Assembly (NCBI GenBank): GCA_027622655.1
Contig: JAQBYI010000006.1
Coordinates: 1 to 64,000 of the forward strand
DNA length: 64,000 bases
Direction: 5' to 3'
DNA from: Gemmatimonadota bacterium
Lineage (GTDB): Bacteria; Gemmatimonadota; Gemmatimonadetes; Gemmatimonadales; Gemmatimonadaceae
A program made the position numbers and the translations under genes. Numbering within the stretch: the first letter of the stretch is position 1; every line of letters begins with the position of its first letter. Below are positions 25,764 to 43,296 of this stretch, piece after piece. Under the pieces are notes generated by a model, which worked only from the letters and a program-made list of their open reading frames with translations, had not been told where the DNA came from and searched no databases.

Positions 25764-27041
25764 TCAGGTTCCTTTGCGGGCGAGTTTGATGCGGTCGCGG
25801 CTAACCGAGCGCAGCTGATCAACACCGGACGCATCAAGCCGCGAGTGCGCCGGGCTGATCAGGCGGCCTCGATCGAGGATGAACAGGATCACACCCATGA
25901 GCACCACGTTGATGGCGAACAACGCTCCGCCGAAGAGCGGCCCGCGTGTGACGCCGGCCATGTCGAGCGCCAGCACCGCCGTTGCGACGATGACCACGTA
26001 GATCAGCGTCATTGGCAGAAGAAGCTTCCAACCAAGCGACATAAGCTGATCGTAGCGGAAACGCGGGAGCGTCCAGCGAATCCAGATGTAGAAGAAGATG
26101 AAGAACAGCACTTTGCTCGCGAACGCACCGAAGGTCAGGACGCTCTTGAGCACCGTCCACGGCCCGGCGTTATCCCACTGCGTGAACGGAATGTCCCATC
26201 CGCCGAAAAAGAGCGTCGCCATCAGGGCGCTCGCCGTGATCATGTTGGCGTATTCGGCAATCGGAAACATGGAGAACTTCATCGCGCTGTATTCGGTATG
26301 GTATCCGGCGATGAGTTCCGATTCGGCTTCGGGAAGGTCAAACGGCACTCGGTTCGTTTCCGCGAAGGCCGAGATCAAAAAGACGAATGCTGCGACCGTC
26401 AACAGGAACGCGTTCCATCCCATCTGTGATTGCTGCGCGACCACCTGATTGAGTGACACGTTGCCGGCAAGCAGAAGGACGCAAACCGTGCTCATGCCCA
26501 TTGCGATCTCGTAACTCACCATCTGCGCGCTCGCACGGAGTCCGCCGAGGAGCGCGTACTTGTTGTTGGAACTCCAGCCGGCGAGCACGATGCCGTACAC
26601 GCCGATGGACGAGATCGCGAGGGTGAACAGAAAACCCACTGGGAGGTCCGCGACGACGAGGTCGATCCGGCCCCAGGGTGTGGGCAACGGGCTCCCGAAC
26701 GGAATGACCGCCCACGTGATCATGGCAGGAACGAAGACGAGACCCGGCGCGAGAATGAAGATTGCCTTGCTCGCGAAATTCGGATACGTCTCTTCCTTCA
26801 TGATGTTCTTGATGCCGTCGGCAGCGACCTGCAGGATACCCTGCGGGCCAACGCGATTCGGGCCGTGCCGGTCCTGGATCCAAGCCGATACCCGTCGTTC
26901 GGCAAAGGTGGTGTAGGCGACGCCCACCATATAGATGGTGAAGATCGCGACCATCTTGACCACCGTTCCGATGACAAACACCACGAGCGACGGATCGCCC
27001 TGCGGGTTCGCGACCTGCAGAAAAAGGTCAGGCGTGATCAT
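25764..27041 (-). CDS. nuoH: NADH-quinone oxidoreductase subunit H
   Basis: 425 residues with eight or more transmembrane helices. NuoH forms the quinone-binding heel of Complex I. Motifs: AERRVSAWIQDRHGPNRVGP near the N-terminus, the acidic loop AETNRVPFDLPEAESELIAGYHTEYS, and IWIRWTLPRFRYDQLM. It is coupled to nuoG by an ATGA overlap. The tail after the last helix (about 35 basic residues) is a little longer than usual. Confidence 0.97.
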   Translation of the reverse strand: MITPDLFLQVANPQGDPSLVVFVIGTVVKMVAIFTIYMVGVAYTTFAERRVSAWIQDRHGPNRVGPQGILQVAADGIKNIMKEETYPNFASKAIFILAPGLVFVPAMITWAVIPFGSPLPTPWGRIDLVVADLPVGFLFTLAISSIGVYGIVLAGWSSNNKYALLGGLRASAQMVSYEIAMGMSTVCVLLLAGNVSLNQVVAQQSQMGWNAFLLTVAAFVFLISAFAETNRVPFDLPEAESELIAGYHTEYSAMKFSMFPIAEYANMITASALMATLFFGGWDIPFTQWDNAGPWTVLKSVLTFGAFASKVLFFIFFYIWIRWTLPRFRYDQLMSLGWKLLLPMTLIYVVIVATAVLALDMAGVTRGPLFGGALFAINVVLMGVILFILDRGRLISPAHSRLDASGVDQLRSVSRDRIKLARKGT

Positions 27042-28591
27042 CTGTTCGCTCCGGCCATCGCACCGGCCACAGTAGCGCCCTTCAACCCGAGCGCGTCATA
27101 CGACATGCCCGCGAACGCGGGTGTTGTCTTGGCCAACGCAGCGAATGCATCCGACGCAGTCATGTACGGGGCCTGCTCGCCCATGGCGATCAGCACGTCG
27201 GCGAGCACGAACCATGCGGGCCGTGCATGACCCGGAGCGGACTTCGCCTGCAGAAAACGCTGAACTCGCCCGCGCAGGTTCGTCAGCGTTCCATCGCTTT
27301 CGGCAACATTCGAAATCGGCAGCGCTGCCGCGAGTTTCTGCATGCCGGTCGGTGCAACCGTCCCAACGAAGACGACACTGCCGGCCGCGGCAATCGCACC
27401 GGCGGGCACCGTAGCCGGATCGATATCGGCCAGCACCAGCACGTCGCCAGATCCAAGCCCGGCGTACGGGTCGTCCGAACGCGTTGCGCCAAGCAACTCC
27501 GCGCCAGTCGCGTTCGCGACCCTGTCCGCGCGCAATGCAAGATCCTCAACGCCGCTCAGTGGTGCCTCTTCGCCCTGCGGAACCGCGAATCGTACCGAGC
27601 CGCCGGTCTTCGCGGCAATGCGGGAAAGCAAATGGAACGCTTCGTTGCTGAGCGAGCCGTTCGCAACGACGCGCGCCTTCTTCCCCTTGAGGGCCGTGGC
27701 GGCGGCAGCGACCGCAGTGCCCCATTCAACTTCGGAAGAGCCGACCATCGGTGCCACACAGCGATCCTGTCGGTTCAGCCAGCGGTAGTTCAGACGCCCT
27801 TCATCGCACATGAAGAACGCGTTGACTTCTTCGTTGGAACGCGGCTTGAGACGCACGACTGCGTCGTCGCGCATTTCCATCATGATGTTGCATCCCTGCG
27901 AGCATCCTGTGCACACCGATGCCGCACGGTCGAGCTCCCAGGCACGGGCCTTGTTCAGAAAGTCCTTCGAGAGCAGCGCGCCAACGGGACACAGATCCAC
28001 CACATTTCCGGCCCACGGCTGCGTGAGGTCCGCGTCCGGCGCCTTGCTGATCACCGCGCGATCGCCGCGCTCGCTCACATTCAGGACCGCCTCTCCGTGC
28101 ACATCGTCCATGAACCGGACGCAGCGCGTGCACAGAATGCAGCGGTTTGGGACGTACAGCACGTCGCCCCCGAAATCTTCGACGGGATTGAAACGCTTTG
28201 GTTCGCGGTACCGCGAATCAGCGCGCCCTTCATGGAACGTATAGTCCTGCAGCTCGCACTCACCTGACTGATCGCAAATCGGGCAGTCGAGCGGATGATT
28301 GATGAGCAGCATTTCGAGTACGCCCTTGCGCGCGTCGAGCGACTTCTCGTTGTGCACGTGCACCACCTGCCCCTCGGCAACGGCGGTCGCGCACGACGGC
28401 ATAAGCTTGGGCGACTTCTCGACGTCCACTAGGCACATGCGGCAGACGCCCACCACTGGAAGACCGGGGTGATAGCAGTAGTGCGGAATCAGCACGCCTG
28501 CGACCTTGGCGGCCTCGAGAATTGAGGTCCCGGCCGGCACCGAAATTTGCCGGCCTTCGACGGTGAGGTTTACCAGCGGCGCATCGGCCAT
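27038..28591 (-). CDS. nuoG: NADH-quinone oxidoreductase subunit G (short form)
   Basis: 517 residues. The N-terminal 220 residues are conventional: [2Fe-2S] ligands in CYHPGLPVVGVCRMC, the His-ligated cluster in HPLDCPICDQSGECELQDY, CILCTRCVRF and CTGCSQGCNIMME. The rest is a shortened molybdopterin-oxidoreductase-like domain with little beyond the first subdomain, against about 900 residues in E. coli NuoG. The stop shows it ends naturally before nuoH (ATGA overlap), so this is a lineage form rather than a truncation. The start shares one base with the nuoF stop (TGATG). Confidence 0.95.
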   Translation of the reverse strand: MADAPLVNLTVEGRQISVPAGTSILEAAKVAGVLIPHYCYHPGLPVVGVCRMCLVDVEKSPKLMPSCATAVAEGQVVHVHNEKSLDARKGVLEMLLINHPLDCPICDQSGECELQDYTFHEGRADSRYREPKRFNPVEDFGGDVLYVPNRCILCTRCVRFMDDVHGEAVLNVSERGDRAVISKAPDADLTQPWAGNVVDLCPVGALLSKDFLNKARAWELDRAASVCTGCSQGCNIMMEMRDDAVVRLKPRSNEEVNAFFMCDEGRLNYRWLNRQDRCVAPMVGSSEVEWGTAVAAAATALKGKKARVVANGSLSNEAFHLLSRIAAKTGGSVRFAVPQGEEAPLSGVEDLALRADRVANATGAELLGATRSDDPYAGLGSGDVLVLADIDPATVPAGAIAAAGSVVFVGTVAPTGMQKLAAALPISNVAESDGTLTNLRGRVQRFLQAKSAPGHARPAWFVLADVLIAMGEQAPYMTASDAFAALAKTTPAFAGMSYDALGLKGATVAGAMAGANR

Positions 28592-29928
28592 CAGGCCCCC
28601 GCTCCCACCGGCAGCTGGAACCCTGAACCGGCGACCTTGCTGGTACGCTTGCCGGAAATCAACGACTCGAACTCATGGCGGAACTTCAGCAGTCCGCTTA
28701 CGACGGGCGCTGCGCACGAGTCACTCAGCACGCAAATCGTCTTCCCGGTCATGTTGTCCGCGATTTCAAGCAGAGTGTCGAGATCTTCGAACGTTCCCTG
28801 CCCGTCCACAATTCGCTCGAGGATCTTGGTCGTCCACGCCGTCCCTTCACGGCACTGCGTGCATTGCCCGCAACTCTCGTGGGCAAAAAACCGCGCGAGC
28901 CGTGCAATCATCCGCGGCATCGACTGGGAATCGTCAAACACAATCACACCACCCGAGCCGAGCATCGTGCCCTGCGCGACGAACCCTTCGTAGTCCATAA
29001 GGGTCGCCTCGGCTTCGGTCATCGTCTGGATCGGAACCGACGCGCCGCCTGGAATGACGGCCTTGAACTTCCGGCCGGCAGGCGGTCCGCCGCAGAGATC
29101 GTACAGAAAATCCTTGAACGGAAAGCCCATCACAACTTCGTAGTTGCCCGGCCTGGCAACGTTCCCGCACACGGAGAAGAGTTTGCTCCCCGTGCTCCTG
29201 GGATTCGACAGCGACATCGCCTTGTACCACTCGGCGCCGTTCGTGAGGATCTGCGGTACGGCCGCGAGAGTTTCTACGTTGTTGATTGTCGTCGGTTGCG
29301 AGAACAGGCCCGAGACTGCCGGGAACGGCGGCTTGATGCGCGGATTGCCACGCTTGCCCTCGAGAGACTCCATCATGGCCGTCTCTTCGCCGCAGATGTA
29401 CGCGCCCGCGCCCTTGTGGACGTGCACGTCAATCCGCTGGCCGCTCCCCATTGCGTTCGGGCCGATTATCCCGGCTGCGTACGCCTCGGCGACCGCGCGC
29501 TCCATCTGCTCGATGGACTCGGTGAACTCGCCCCTGATATAGACGTAGGCCGTCTCGGCTCCAATCGCATAGGCAGCGATCGCGCACCCTTCAACGAGGG
29601 CGTGCGGCGTCCAGCGCATGATCTCGCGGTCTTTGAACGTTCCCGGCTCCGACTCGTCTGCGTTGCAGCAGAGGTAATGCGGCTTGCCGTCGCCGGGCTT
29701 CATGAACGACCATTTCATGCCCGTTGGGAACCCGGCGCCGCCGCGTCCGCGGAGTCCGGAGGCCTTGACGATGTCAACGATGGCCGCCGGCGTCATGGCA
29801 AGCGCCTGCTCGAGGGCGCGATACCCGCCGCGCTTTTTCCATCCCTCAAGCGAACGCGCGTCCGGTTCCCCAAAATGCTTGGAGAGGATCGCCGTTTCGC
29901 GAGGGTGACTTCTGTGCGGATATCCCAT
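28591..29928 (-). CDS. nuoF: NADH-quinone oxidoreductase subunit F
   Basis: 445 residues. NuoF binds NADH and FMN. The motifs are GLRGRGGAGFPTGMKWSFM (nucleotide/FMN), CNADESEPGTFKDREIM, YICGEETAMMESLEGKRG and the cluster N3 ligands in ESCGQCTQCREGTAW plus the later Cys in SDSCAAPV. It begins TAATG, sharing one base with the nuoE stop. It follows the standard order and length. Confidence 0.97.
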   Translation of the reverse strand: MGYPHRSHPRETAILSKHFGEPDARSLEGWKKRGGYRALEQALAMTPAAIVDIVKASGLRGRGGAGFPTGMKWSFMKPGDGKPHYLCCNADESEPGTFKDREIMRWTPHALVEGCAIAAYAIGAETAYVYIRGEFTESIEQMERAVAEAYAAGIIGPNAMGSGQRIDVHVHKGAGAYICGEETAMMESLEGKRGNPRIKPPFPAVSGLFSQPTTINNVETLAAVPQILTNGAEWYKAMSLSNPRSTGSKLFSVCGNVARPGNYEVVMGFPFKDFLYDLCGGPPAGRKFKAVIPGGASVPIQTMTEAEATLMDYEGFVAQGTMLGSGGVIVFDDSQSMPRMIARLARFFAHESCGQCTQCREGTAWTTKILERIVDGQGTFEDLDTLLEIADNMTGKTICVLSDSCAAPVVSGLLKFRHEFESLISGKRTSKVAGSGFQLPVGAGA

Positions 29929-30425
29929 TACTTCAAGCCCGCCAGGATCTGCGGCACCTTGTCGGCACTCACGTTTTCAATCGTATCGGCGTTGATCTGA
30001 ACGGGCGTGGCGAACCCACACGCCCCGAGGCATTCGACTTCAATCACCGTGTATTTCCCGTCGGGCGACGTCACGCCGAGTTCATTGCAGCCGGTGTGCT
30101 TTAGAAACGCTTCCGTCACTTTGTCGGCACCGGCGCAGAGGCACGGCGATGTGGTGCATATCTGAACGAAGTATTTCCCAACCGGATGCTGGTGGTACAT
30201 CGTGTAAAACGTCACCACGCCCTTCACGTACGCCGGCGTGATGTCGAGCGCCCCGGCGACTTCCGTCATCGCCTCTTCGCCCACCCAGCCGCGCTCTTCC
30301 TGCACGATCCAGAGCGCGGGGAGCAAAGCGGCCTGCTTGGTCGGATACCGGAGCAGGATTGCATCGAGGTCTTTCATACGCTTGCCGACAAAAACCTTTT
30401 CGTACGGCGCGTGTGTGGTGCTCAT
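29928..30425 (-). CDS. nuoE: NADH-quinone oxidoreductase subunit E
   Basis: 165 residues with a thioredoxin-like fold binding the off-pathway [2Fe-2S] cluster N1a. Ligands are in CTTSPCLCAGAD and ECLGACGFATPVQIN. The N-terminal helical part has LPALWIVQEERGWVGEEAM, usual for the family. It follows nuoD after a 28-base gap, one of the larger ones in the operon, and is coupled to nuoF. Confidence 0.96.
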   Translation of the reverse strand: MSTTHAPYEKVFVGKRMKDLDAILLRYPTKQAALLPALWIVQEERGWVGEEAMTEVAGALDITPAYVKGVVTFYTMYHQHPVGKYFVQICTTSPCLCAGADKVTEAFLKHTGCNELGVTSPDGKYTVIEVECLGACGFATPVQINADTIENVSADKVPQILAGLK

Positions 30426-30453
30426 GTGACCGCCCGCGTGTTATCGGTCGAGA

Positions 30454-31764
30454 TCATCTGTCAATCTCCCCCATCACAATATCAATGGAGGCGTTGATCG
30501 CGATCACGTCCGAGAGCAGATGCCCTTCGACCATCTTCGGGATCGCCGACAAGTTCACGAAACTCGGCGGGCGGATCCGCCAGCGCGACGGCTTCGACGT
30601 TCCGTCCGAGACCATGTAGTAGCCCTTTTCGCCCTTCGGGCTTTCGACCGCGACGTAGCACTCGCCTGCCGGCGGCCGTGGCCCTTCCATCACGTTCTTG
30701 AAGTGATGGATCATCGATTCCATCTCGCTGGTCGCCTTGCTCTTGGGCGGAAGGATGATGCGCACGTCGTCCACGTTCACCGGGCCGTCCGGGAGACGCT
30801 TGACGGCCTGATCGAGAATCCTGATCGACTGCCGCATTTCTTCAACCCGCACCAGGAACCGATCATACACGTCGCCCGCCGAACCAACAGGCACGTCGAA
30901 GTCGTACGTCTCATAGTCGAGGTACGGAAAATCCTTGCGCACGTCGTACGCGACGCCCGACGCGCGCACCATGGGACCGGAAAGGCCGTAGTTGACCGCC
31001 TCTACAGGCGACATGACGCCGAGTCCAACCGTGCGGCCCACCCAGATCGCGTTCTTGGTGAGCATTCGCTCACATTCGTCGATCGTCTTGGGGAAGGTGC
31101 GAATGAAACCCTGCAGTCCCTCGAGCCACTTGTCCGGAATGTCCGCGGCCATGCCGCCCACGCGAGTCGCGCTGGTCGTGAGCCGCGCTCCCACCCATCC
31201 TTCGAGCAGGTTGTAAATGTTCTCGCGTTCCTGAAACGACCATAGGAACGGCGTGAACGCGCCGATGTCGATGCACGTTGTTCCCAGCCAGACCAGGTGC
31301 GACGCGATGCGCGACAACTCCATTGCGATGACCCGCAACACCTTGCAGCGTTCGGTGATCTCGATGCCGAAGATTCGCTCGGCGCCCAACGCAAAGGCGC
31401 AGTTGTTGCCGATCGAGTTGAGGTAGTCCTCGCGATCCGTCCACGGCACGATCTGATTGTACTGCCGGTATTCGCCGATCTTCTCGAATCCGCAGTGCAG
31501 GTAGCCCACGTGCGGAATGCACCGAACCACCGTCTCGCCATCGAGCTCGAGCACCAGGCGGAGTACACCGTGTGTTGCCGGATGCTGCGGTCCGATGTTG
31601 ATGAGCATGTGCTCACCTTCGAATTCCGGCTCCATCGCCGGCGGCGCTTCCAGCGCAACAGCACCTCCGTCACCGCCTACAACGAGCGGAACGCGCTGCG
31701 GCTTTCCGTCCGGGGACAGACCCGTGGTCGAAAGTTCGACCTCAAGCGTGCGCTTGGTGCCCAT
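30454..31764 (-). CDS. nuoD: NADH-quinone oxidoreductase subunit D
   Basis: 436 residues, the 49-kDa-type subunit that forms the quinone site with NuoB. Motifs: INIGPQHPATHGVLRLVLELDGE, HVGYLHCGFEKIGEYRQYNQ, CKVLRVIAMELSRIASHL and the C-terminal MVSDGTSKPSRWRIRPPSF. An N-terminal extension of about 50 residues (GLSPDGKPQRVPLVVGGDGG) precedes the conserved core. It follows nuoC with a 2-base gap; C and D are separate, unlike the fused form in E. coli. Confidence 0.97.
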   Translation of the reverse strand: MGTKRTLEVELSTTGLSPDGKPQRVPLVVGGDGGAVALEAPPAMEPEFEGEHMLINIGPQHPATHGVLRLVLELDGETVVRCIPHVGYLHCGFEKIGEYRQYNQIVPWTDREDYLNSIGNNCAFALGAERIFGIEITERCKVLRVIAMELSRIASHLVWLGTTCIDIGAFTPFLWSFQERENIYNLLEGWVGARLTTSATRVGGMAADIPDKWLEGLQGFIRTFPKTIDECERMLTKNAIWVGRTVGLGVMSPVEAVNYGLSGPMVRASGVAYDVRKDFPYLDYETYDFDVPVGSAGDVYDRFLVRVEEMRQSIRILDQAVKRLPDGPVNVDDVRIILPPKSKATSEMESMIHHFKNVMEGPRPPAGECYVAVESPKGEKGYYMVSDGTSKPSRWRIRPPSFVNLSAIPKMVEGHLLSDVIAINASIDIVMGEIDR

Positions 31765-31766
31765 CG

Positions 31767-32462
31767 CTACTCGCCCACCTTCTCGCCTTCACTCAAGCGG
31801 CGGCGCATATCGAGCGGAAGTTCCTCAAAGGCGTCTGCGATGGAGAGCTCTTCCATCGAATAGCGAGCTTCAGGATTGGCAGCAAGCGCGTTCTTGAGTT
31901 GTTCCGACCGGCTGAAGCGCCCCCGCAGCGGAAAGTCCTTCCGAAGTGGGAACCCTTCCTTGTACTGCTCCCACATCAGGATGCGGCGCAGATCAGGGTG
32001 CCCCGCGAACTTGACGCCGAACATGTCGTAGCACTCGCGCTCTAGCCAATCGGCACCCTTGTAGATGTCCATCACGCTAGGCACTTCGAGCGGCGCGCCC
32101 TTGGCGATGAGCACCTTCACGCGAATGAAGCGGCGATACCGCAGCGACCGAAGATGCCACACCACTTCCAACGGCAGCGACAGGTCACGGTGCTCAACGG
32201 CGGTGACGTCGGATAGATAGTCGTACGATTGCTGCGCGTCATCGTGCAGCCAGAGAATCACGTCGTGCACTCGCGCGCCGTCCACGATGATCGTCGTCTC
32301 GCCGCGCGAAACAACCGTGCGCGATATCACACCAGGAAACTGCGCGCCCACCGCCTCGGCAGTTGGGCTAACAGGGCCTCCGCTCACCGGCACGTTTTTC
32401 GGCGTGACCGGCGTGGCATTGCTGCCTGTTCCCGGATGGACGATCGTGAATGACGGACTCAT
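31767..32462 (-). CDS. nuoC: NADH-quinone oxidoreductase subunit C
   Basis: 231 residues from the ATG at 32462 (MSPSFTIVHPGTG), 7 bases after the nuoB stop. The 30-kDa-type core is recognised by YDYLSDVTAVEHRD and the signature ERECYDMFGVKFAGHPDLRRI, then EGFPLRKDFPLRGRF. An extra C-terminal tail of about 40 residues (SMEELSIADAFEELPLDMRRR) follows. The N-terminus carries a Pro/Thr-rich 35-residue lead that is poorly conserved. The longer frame upstream runs into nuoB and is not used. Confidence 0.95.
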   Translation of the reverse strand: MSPSFTIVHPGTGSNATPVTPKNVPVSGGPVSPTAEAVGAQFPGVISRTVVSRGETTIIVDGARVHDVILWLHDDAQQSYDYLSDVTAVEHRDLSLPLEVVWHLRSLRYRRFIRVKVLIAKGAPLEVPSVMDIYKGADWLERECYDMFGVKFAGHPDLRRILMWEQYKEGFPLRKDFPLRGRFSRSEQLKNALAANPEARYSMEELSIADAFEELPLDMRRRLSEGEKVGE

Positions 32463-32469
32463 CGGCGAC

Positions 32470-33114
32470 TCAGGGCGCGGAGCGGGTCTGGTGCACCGAG
32501 TTGCCGAACGGCTCGGAAAGTTCGTCAATGCGCGACGCCGGGATATAGAGCTTGCTCGTCGGGTCCGGGCTCATCTCATCGCGGATTCCCTGCTGTGCGT
32601 TGCGTTCGTTCATGATCTTCTTCTGCAGCATCATGATGCCGTAGATGAGTCCCTCGGGCCGCGGCGGACAACCGGGGACGTATACGTCTACGGGAATGAT
32701 CGTGTCGATCCCCTGCACGACGGCGTAGTTGTCGAACATTCCGCCCGTTGAGGCGCAAGCGCCCATCGAGATTGACCACTTGGGCTGCGTCATCTGCTGC
32801 CAGATGCGCCGGATGATCGGGGCAAGCTTGTAGGGCACCCGACCGGCGCAGATGAGTACATCGCTCTGCCTTGGCGAGAACGCCATGCGCTCCATGCCGA
32901 ATCGCGCGAGATCGTACTTGCTGGCAAACGAAGCCATCATCTCAATGGCGCAGCACGCCGTTCCGAATGGCATTGGCCATAGGGAGTTCGCGCGGCCCCA
33001 ATTCACGAGGAAATCGAGCTTCGTGGTCACCCACGCTTCGCCTGGACGGGCATCGAACCGAACCAGCTCGGTTGCCGCACCGTGGCCGGCGAGATCAGCG
33101 TCGCTCAGTCCCAC
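32470..33114 (-). CDS. nuoB: NADH-quinone oxidoreductase subunit B
   Basis: 214 residues if translation begins at the GTG at 33114, which overlaps the nuoA end by 10 bases and has AAGGGGG 5-8 bases upstream; the open frame goes on to 33537 through nuoA but is not family-like there. The N2 cluster ligands are the paired Cys in [13 protein letters not shown], the Cys in [15 protein letters not shown] and the one in [16 protein letters not shown] 35-residue C-terminal tail follows the core. It couples the Fe-S chain to quinone. Confidence 0.95.
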
Positions 33115-33509
33115 TCCAGTGCCCCCTTCTTCCAGACGTAGATGAACCCGACGAACAGAATGACCATGAATACGACCATCTCCGCGAGCCCAAAGAACGA
33201 GAGCTGGCCTGCGGGGCATGCGCCGCCGGCAAGCGGAACCGCGCACGAGAGCTGACGGTAGTACGCGCCCCACGGAATCATGAATACGGTTTCGATGTCG
33301 AACACGATGAACAGCATCGCAACCATATAGAACTTGACGCTGAACCGCTCGCGGGCGTCGCCGAGCGGCGTGATGCCCGACTCGTACGGCGTCTGCTTTT
33401 CCGGCGTCGATCGTGAGCGCATCGTGAAGTGCGAGAGGGCAAGCATGCCAATCGCGTTCACGACCACGAAACCGACGAGGAGTAGTACCGGGAGGTAAGT
33501 GCGGTCCAT
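33105..33509 (-). CDS. nuoA: NADH-quinone oxidoreductase subunit A
   Basis: 134 residues with three transmembrane helices. The family core is [40 protein letters not shown], split here by description: KQTPYESGI, then [19 protein letters not shown], then VFMIPWG. A 20-residue Cys-containing loop ([15 protein letters not shown]) lies between helices two and three. It is the first gene of the 14-gene nuo operon; its leader holds the promoter and the Rex-like palindrome. No strong Shine-Dalgarno is seen before the ATG. Confidence 0.96.
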
Positions 33510-33526: not shown

Positions 33527-33544
33527 TCGTGAAACATTTCACGA
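33527..33544. promoter_or_regulatory. Rex-like 18-bp palindrome in the nuo leader
   Basis: TCGTGAAACATTTCACGA is a perfect inverted repeat with 7-base arms and a 4-base spacer. The published Rex consensus is TTGTGAA-N4-TTCACAA; this site has the same length and spacing and differs by one symmetrical base per arm. It lies about 17 bases upstream of the nuoA start and just downstream of the predicted -10, a usual repressor position. Rex senses the NADH/NAD+ ratio and controls nuo in some bacteria, so the role fits; assignment to Rex is inference and no rex gene is in the window. Confidence 0.6.
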
Positions 33545-33555
33545 ACTGCACCTAA

Positions 33556-33583
33556 GTTATTTGGCTGGACGAAGTAGTGTCAA
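33556..33583 (-). promoter_or_regulatory. sigma70-like promoter of the nuo operon
   Basis: The minus strand reads a consensus -35 TTGACA (33583-33578), a 16-base spacer and AATAAC (33561-33556) as -10, four of six matching. Transcription would start near 33549, about 40 bases before nuoA, placing the 33527-33544 palindrome in the earliest transcribed region. This is the best promoter match I see in the window, and it lies at the head of the largest operon. Confidence 0.6.
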
Positions 33584-33721: not shown

Positions 33722-34270
33722 ATGTCCATCAAAAACGACCGCTGGATCATTGAACACGCCAAACTCGGCATGATCGAGCCCTTTGAGAGCTCGCAGATGC
33801 GCGACGGCGTGATTTCCTACGGCGTCAGCTCGTTCGGTTACGACATGCGCGTCGCGGCCGAGTTCAAGATCTTCACGAACGTGCTGAGTTCGATCGTGGA
33901 TCCCAAGAACTTCGATCCCAAGTCGTTCGTTGAGTTCTCCGGCGATGTCTGCGTCGTACCGCCCAACTCATTCGCGCTGGCGCGGAGCGTCGAGTACTTC
34001 CGGATCCCACGGAATGTCGTGACCATTACGGTCGGCAAGAGCACGTACGCCCGGTGCGGAATCATCACGAACGTCACGCCGTTCGAGCCGGAGTGGGAGG
34101 GCCACGTAACGCTCGAGATTTCGAACACCACTCCCCTTCCGGCGAAGATCTATGCCAATGAAGGGATAGCCCAGGTGCTCTTCTTCGAGGGTGAGGAACC
34201 GATCACGTCGTACAAGGACAAGAAGGGCAAGTACCAGGGGCAACGTGGAGTGACGCTGCCGAAGATCTAG
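33722..34270 (+). CDS. dcd: dCTP deaminase
   Basis: 182 residues. Dcd deaminates dCTP to dUTP, feeding dTMP synthesis. It belongs to the dUTPase-like trimeric fold; motifs are [65 protein letters not shown] (with the catalytic Glu) and [12 protein letters not shown]. The C-terminus [19 protein letters not shown] closes over substrate. The start ATG at 33722 is chosen over upstream codons because the conserved MSIKNDRWI begins there. It is divergent from nuo and isolated on the plus strand. Confidence 0.95.

Positions 34271-42270: not shown

Positions 42271-43296
<1,026 letters not shown>

Follow-up and report, generated by a model that had tools for sequence, protein, structure and literature searches.

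The palindrome that precedes nuoA, the first gene of the Complex I (nuo) operon, in a Gemmatimonadota bacterium is very probably, as judged from its sequence, conservation, and loss together with rex, the binding site from which the NAD(H)-sensing regulator Rex would control this operon. Rex is a known NADH-sensing repressor. The palindrome lies in the window, i.e., the whole stretch of 64,000 nucleotides that was analysed, which belongs to a genome of 3.14 Mb (G000; 115 contigs, 99.7% complete) with Gemmatimonadaceae as its nearest named relatives. The features of the locus are as follows.

27038..33104, minus strand: nuoB to a nuoG-like ORF, presumed to be co-transcribed (ORF list; names read from translations).
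33105..33509, minus strand: nuoA, gene 1 of the Complex I operon (PF00507, E 3.4e-34; NCBIfam subunit A models).
33527..33544, minus strand: predicted Rex operator of the nuo operon, TCGTGAAATGTTTCACGA in the nuo sense.
33545..33548, minus strand: expected transcription start region, directly before the operator, placed from the position of the -10 element.
33554..33559, minus strand: likely -10 element TAACTT, spacer 18 nt (commonest hexamer type in relatives).
33578..33583, minus strand: -35 element TTGACA, perfect (sequence; TTGAC/TTGA recurs in relatives).
33722..34270, plus strand: divergent dCTP deaminase gene (TIGR02274, E 7.1e-46), 177 nt from the operator and not thought to be a Rex target.

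The palindrome reported upstream of nuoA in an earlier note on this DNA is present exactly at 33527-33544 and ends 17 nt before the nuoA ATG. Its arms, described there as perfect over seven bases, are indeed perfect, but their true length is eight bases (TCGTGAAA-CA-TTTCACGA; whole palindrome, TCGTGAAACATTTCACGA). Inside the 18 bp lies an exact GTGAA-N4-TTCAC, the core of Rex operators (ROPs), and the site agrees with the consensus TTGTGAA-N4-TTCACAA at 12 of 14 bases, the departure being the one symmetric change already noticed (T2 to C, A17 to G). When the entire 3.14-Mb genome is scanned for TCGTGAA-N4-TTCACGA, as the earlier note had proposed, a single exact copy is found, the one at nuoA. 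With up to two mismatches the pattern occurs three times in the window, versus a mean of 0.24 in shuffled windows; the weak matches, at 42534 and 55126, carry two mismatches each. A chance origin of the palindrome was rejected in view of the unique exact pattern in the genome and the conserved core. A phage search using the intergenic DNA gave no match.

The genome contains one rex gene (G000:C31:9169-9792; PF06971, E 1.5e-17), and its product scores above the cut-off of five NCBIfam Rex models. By sequence, the nearest solved chains are those of Thermus Rex; as in the Thermus and T. maritima proteins, for which Rex–DNA complexes have been solved, the recognition helix QVRKDLS and the RG wing (GTRGLGY) are intact. 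The rex promoter itself carries TTGTGAAATCATTCACAA, a perfect TTGTGAA-N4-TTCACAA, and the same perfect operator is found in 30/30 same-family genomes read, the source genome included, located 6-41 nt upstream of where the matched protein begins. For the rex operators of 19 relatives from the order and class, the score is 12-14 of 14. An altered Rex specificity in this lineage was considered and rejected, since rex operators are canonical and the recognition residues unchanged.

The nuo promoter had been described as a consensus promoter, TTGACA-N16-AATAAC. While TTGACA is perfect, AATAAC (33561-33556) is a weak -10 element that matches TATAAT at 4/6 bases, and a simple sigma-70 scan called no promoter here. 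A better -10 candidate, two bases away, is TAACTT at 33559-33554, because relatives with a recognisable promoter read TTGAC-N17-18-TAACTT/TAAGTT or similar, these being the commonest hexamers at that distance; of 105 same-family sequences, about half have TTGAC in the 60 nt that precede the site, and 83 have TTGA there. The palindrome starts 9 nt after TAACTT and therefore lies at the expected transcription start. From this arrangement and from what known Rex proteins do, a mechanism can be proposed in which an NADH-free Rex dimer would sit on 33527-33544, at the expected start, and block initiation or early elongation. A rise in NADH would lead Rex to bind NADH and to leave the DNA, whereupon nuo would be transcribed and NADH oxidation restored. 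It is well supported that the nuo operator adds one more case to a known type of switch and does not represent a novel type of system.

To assess conservation of the site, the DNA upstream of nuoA was read in 107 same-family genomes, which gave 108 regions. The GTGAA-N4-TTCAC core is near-invariant before nuoA, being kept in 105/108 regions, and it recurs across the class in most class relatives. The palindrome is absent in G025 and G073 and degenerate in G045. Together with the rex gene, this persistence supports the Rex-site reading of the earlier note, which would have abandoned it had the genome lacked a Rex homologue and relatives the palindrome. Alignment of 105 sites shows no change in GTG or CAC and retention of the AA/TT positions in at least 103; positions 1-2 and the spacer are variable. 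In the T. maritima Rex–DNA complex, major-groove contacts to the core G, G, and A are made by Arg48 and Lys49, and the wing residues Arg60/Gly61 reach the two outer T's through the minor groove (PMC8836258). With positions mapped across, the invariant bases of the nuoA site would fit those that Rex reads in that complex (PMC8836258). T. maritima Rex was crystallised on a site with T/A-rich outer bases; the structure lacks the C-G pair that occupies position 2 at nuoA.

The site also tends to disappear with its presumed regulator. PF06971 searches found no Rex in genera g25 (3 genomes), g67 (4), g48, g65, and g86, so that absence is backed by several genomes in two of the five genera; an additional Rex protein search in g25 was likewise without match. 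The nuoA palindrome is absent in all five genera wherever nuoA is readable, and in g25 promoter-like TTGACC and TACCTT persist upstream of nuoA despite its loss. Exact canonical Rex sites number zero in genomes of these genera, while 33/35 rex-bearing genomes have 1-17. The association was counted over 149 nuoA upstream regions, comprising every one sampled outside the family and, within it, those of genomes at least 85% complete. Of these regions, 126 have the site and 10 lack it where rex is present, compared with 5 and 8 where rex was not found (Fisher p 8e-6, only a guide because the genomes are related and not independent). The site is thus conserved at orthologous genes and lost with the regulator, with exceptions in both directions. 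Against the association stand nine rex-bearing genomes from families f2, f3, and f8 without a nuoA site—nuo is therefore not an obligatory Rex target—and the degenerate site of the same-family, rex-bearing G045. Within families f2/f3, genomes with rex and no palindrome before nuoA are G129, G140, G143, G165, G174, G185, G195, and G211. Conversely, five rex-less drafts at least 85% complete (G012, G069, G082, G104, G208) keep the site, perhaps owing to assembly gaps or recent loss. G069 retains the Rex-type site TTGTGATAATTTTCACAA before atpA and two canonical sites, and its missing rex probably reflects a gap in the assembly. In G012 the nuoA core carries a base change and the act site is missing, a pattern that a recent loss of rex would produce.

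Against the Rex reading also stands the difference between the nuoA site and the perfect operator at rex in the same lineage. The right half reads TTCACGA, with G in 95/105 same-family sites and in nearly all sites of sister family f2; sites in families f4 to f7 mostly have TTCACAA instead. Different operators coexist within one genome: the rex operator is perfect, the T at position 7 is fixed at atpA, and TTCACGA is found at nuoA; rex, act, and atpA sites keep TTCACAA in genomes whose nuoA has TTCACGA. The deviation therefore belongs to each promoter and not to the Rex of the lineage. The slightly altered half-site suggested in the earlier note is accordingly real at the nuoA promoter but not lineage-wide, given the perfect rex operator and the TTCACAA kept at atpA and actA. 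Published footprinted ROPs also depart from the full consensus, among them the S. avermitilis atpI operator TTGTGATACGGTTCACGA, which has a TTCACGA half and is footprinted by Rex (PMC5355995); TTCACGA is hence compatible with Rex binding. A second, non-Rex repressor preferring TTCACGA might instead bind at nuoA, and within the order the contrast between TTCACGA at nuoA (95/105 in the family) and TTCACAA at rex and atpA would suit such a protein. However, the nuoA site is TTCACAA in families f4 to f7, it is gone where rex is not found, and TTCACGA occurs inside a Streptomyces Rex footprint (PMC5355995), so that this reading is very unlikely and a second repressor is not needed.

Binding of the palindrome by a CRP/FNR-family regulator, as CGTGA-N6-TCACG, is a highly improbable explanation. 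The CRP site is TGTGA-N6-TCACA; the arms and spacing of the palindrome do resemble it, and CGTGA-N6-TCACG would be a symmetric variant. Yet an HTH_Crp_2 (PF13545) search of the source genome returned none, genomes of genus g25 have HTH_Crp_2 proteins and nevertheless lost the palindrome, and A7/T12, which lie outside the CRP core but inside the Rex core, are kept in at least 103/105 sites. An RNA hairpin in the nuoA 5′ leader acting on translation or mRNA stability has hardly any probability either: although the palindrome can be expected to lie in the leader and does fold as RNA (z-score -2.6), 52/105 relatives do not pair at 2/17 and show no compensating change, the varying pairs 1/18 and 2/17 are broken while the core pairs are fixed, the distance to the start codon varies, and the site vanishes together with rex.

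Returning to Rex as the regulator of nuo, further candidate targets were sought as sites with at most one mismatch from the canonical operator. The following predicted Rex sites were obtained in the source genome.

C31: TTGTGAAATCATTCACAA, before rex.
C45: TTGTGATATTTTTCACAA, before atpAGDC.
C61: TTGTGAAATATTTCGCAA, before the F0 genes, the first of which encodes an ATPase_gene1 protein.
C52: before a plastocyanin-like cupredoxin gene.
C98 (L360:1520-9345; G000:C98): TTGTGAACATTTTCACAT, before the alternative complex III operon.

Both ATP synthase operons are thus preceded by Rex-type sites, and the C98 operon, in which a multiheme cytochrome gene is followed by genes for molybdopterin, NrfD, and ActD proteins, encodes alternative complex III. 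The atpA site reads TTGTGAT-N4-TTCACAA in 22/22 rex-bearing relatives read; it was not found in the rex-less G025, G052, and G148, and in G012 the upstream region ends at the contig end and could not be read. This atpA variant is asymmetric, with GC directly after it, and the rex operator is perfect in the same genomes. At act, a site with at most one mismatch from the canonical operator is present in 20/24 rex-bearing relatives, the exceptions being G001, which has an exact site inside an over-long match, and G022, G098, and G126, which have none; no act site was found in G012, G025, G052, G073, G148, or G069. Judged from these sites, the same Rex would repress its own gene and those for alternative complex III, ATP synthase, and the cupredoxin, and its reach seems to extend to most of the respiratory chain in the source bacterium.

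Several of these features recall known Rex systems. S. avermitilis Rex footprints lie at nuoA1, atpI, rex, and cydA1, the cydA1 site spanning -3 to +25 (PMC5355995). In both bacteria the promoters of rex, nuo, and atp genes carry Rex operators, predicted ones in the present case, and the TTCACGA half-site of S. avermitilis atpI (PMC5355995) is found here at nuoA. The nuoA operator, like that of S. avermitilis cydA1, lies over and downstream of the expected start, whereas S. avermitilis nuoA1 and atpI operators cover the -35 region; the nuoA site here follows the -10 element (PMC5355995). S. avermitilis targets include cytochrome bd and hem genes, while alternative complex III and the cupredoxin carry sites here (PMC5355995). 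The operator consensus TTGTGAAWWWWTTCACAA is shared with Gram-positive fermenters, e.g., Staphylococcus aureus, in which Rex targets are anaerobically induced genes rather than the respiratory-chain genes seen here (PMC2883068).

Taken together, the sites suggest that in Gemmatimonadota NADH feeds back on Complex I and probably on the larger part of oxidative phosphorylation. In the open-access literature, no paper on Rex regulation in this phylum was found (the comparative Rex-regulon study of Ravcheev and colleagues lies outside that scope), nor one joining Rex and alternative complex III. It is plausible, if speculative, that Rex binds TTCACGA less tightly and that nuo thereby has an NADH threshold of its own, with release at lower NADH than at rex. 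A broader and tentative idea, more likely wrong than right, is that nearly the entire respiratory chain of Gemmatimonadota (Complex I, alternative complex III, cupredoxin, ATP synthase) is governed by Rex via family-fixed operator variants, and that these set a conserved order of switch-on as NADH rises. The variants are TTCACGA as the right half at nuoA, TTGTGAT-N4-TTCACAA at atpA, and the perfect operator at rex and in most cases at act. The fixed promoter-specific variants constitute a natural series for asking whether operator strength sets the order of NADH induction, and lineages that lost both rex and the sites provide a natural control.

Two observations concern exact matches to the consensus. 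A perfect TTGTGAA-N4-TTCACAA between clpP and clpX (C3:6564-6581; L005:1501-1518) lies within GGGCTTGTGAATCCCTTCACAAGCCCGTTTT and was left out of the candidate targets since that sequence looks like an intrinsic terminator stem; an exact consensus match can therefore be a false Rex site. The class neighbour G130 (family f5, genus g62) has 17 exact canonical Rex sites, versus 1-3 in most relatives, and may have an expanded Rex regulon.
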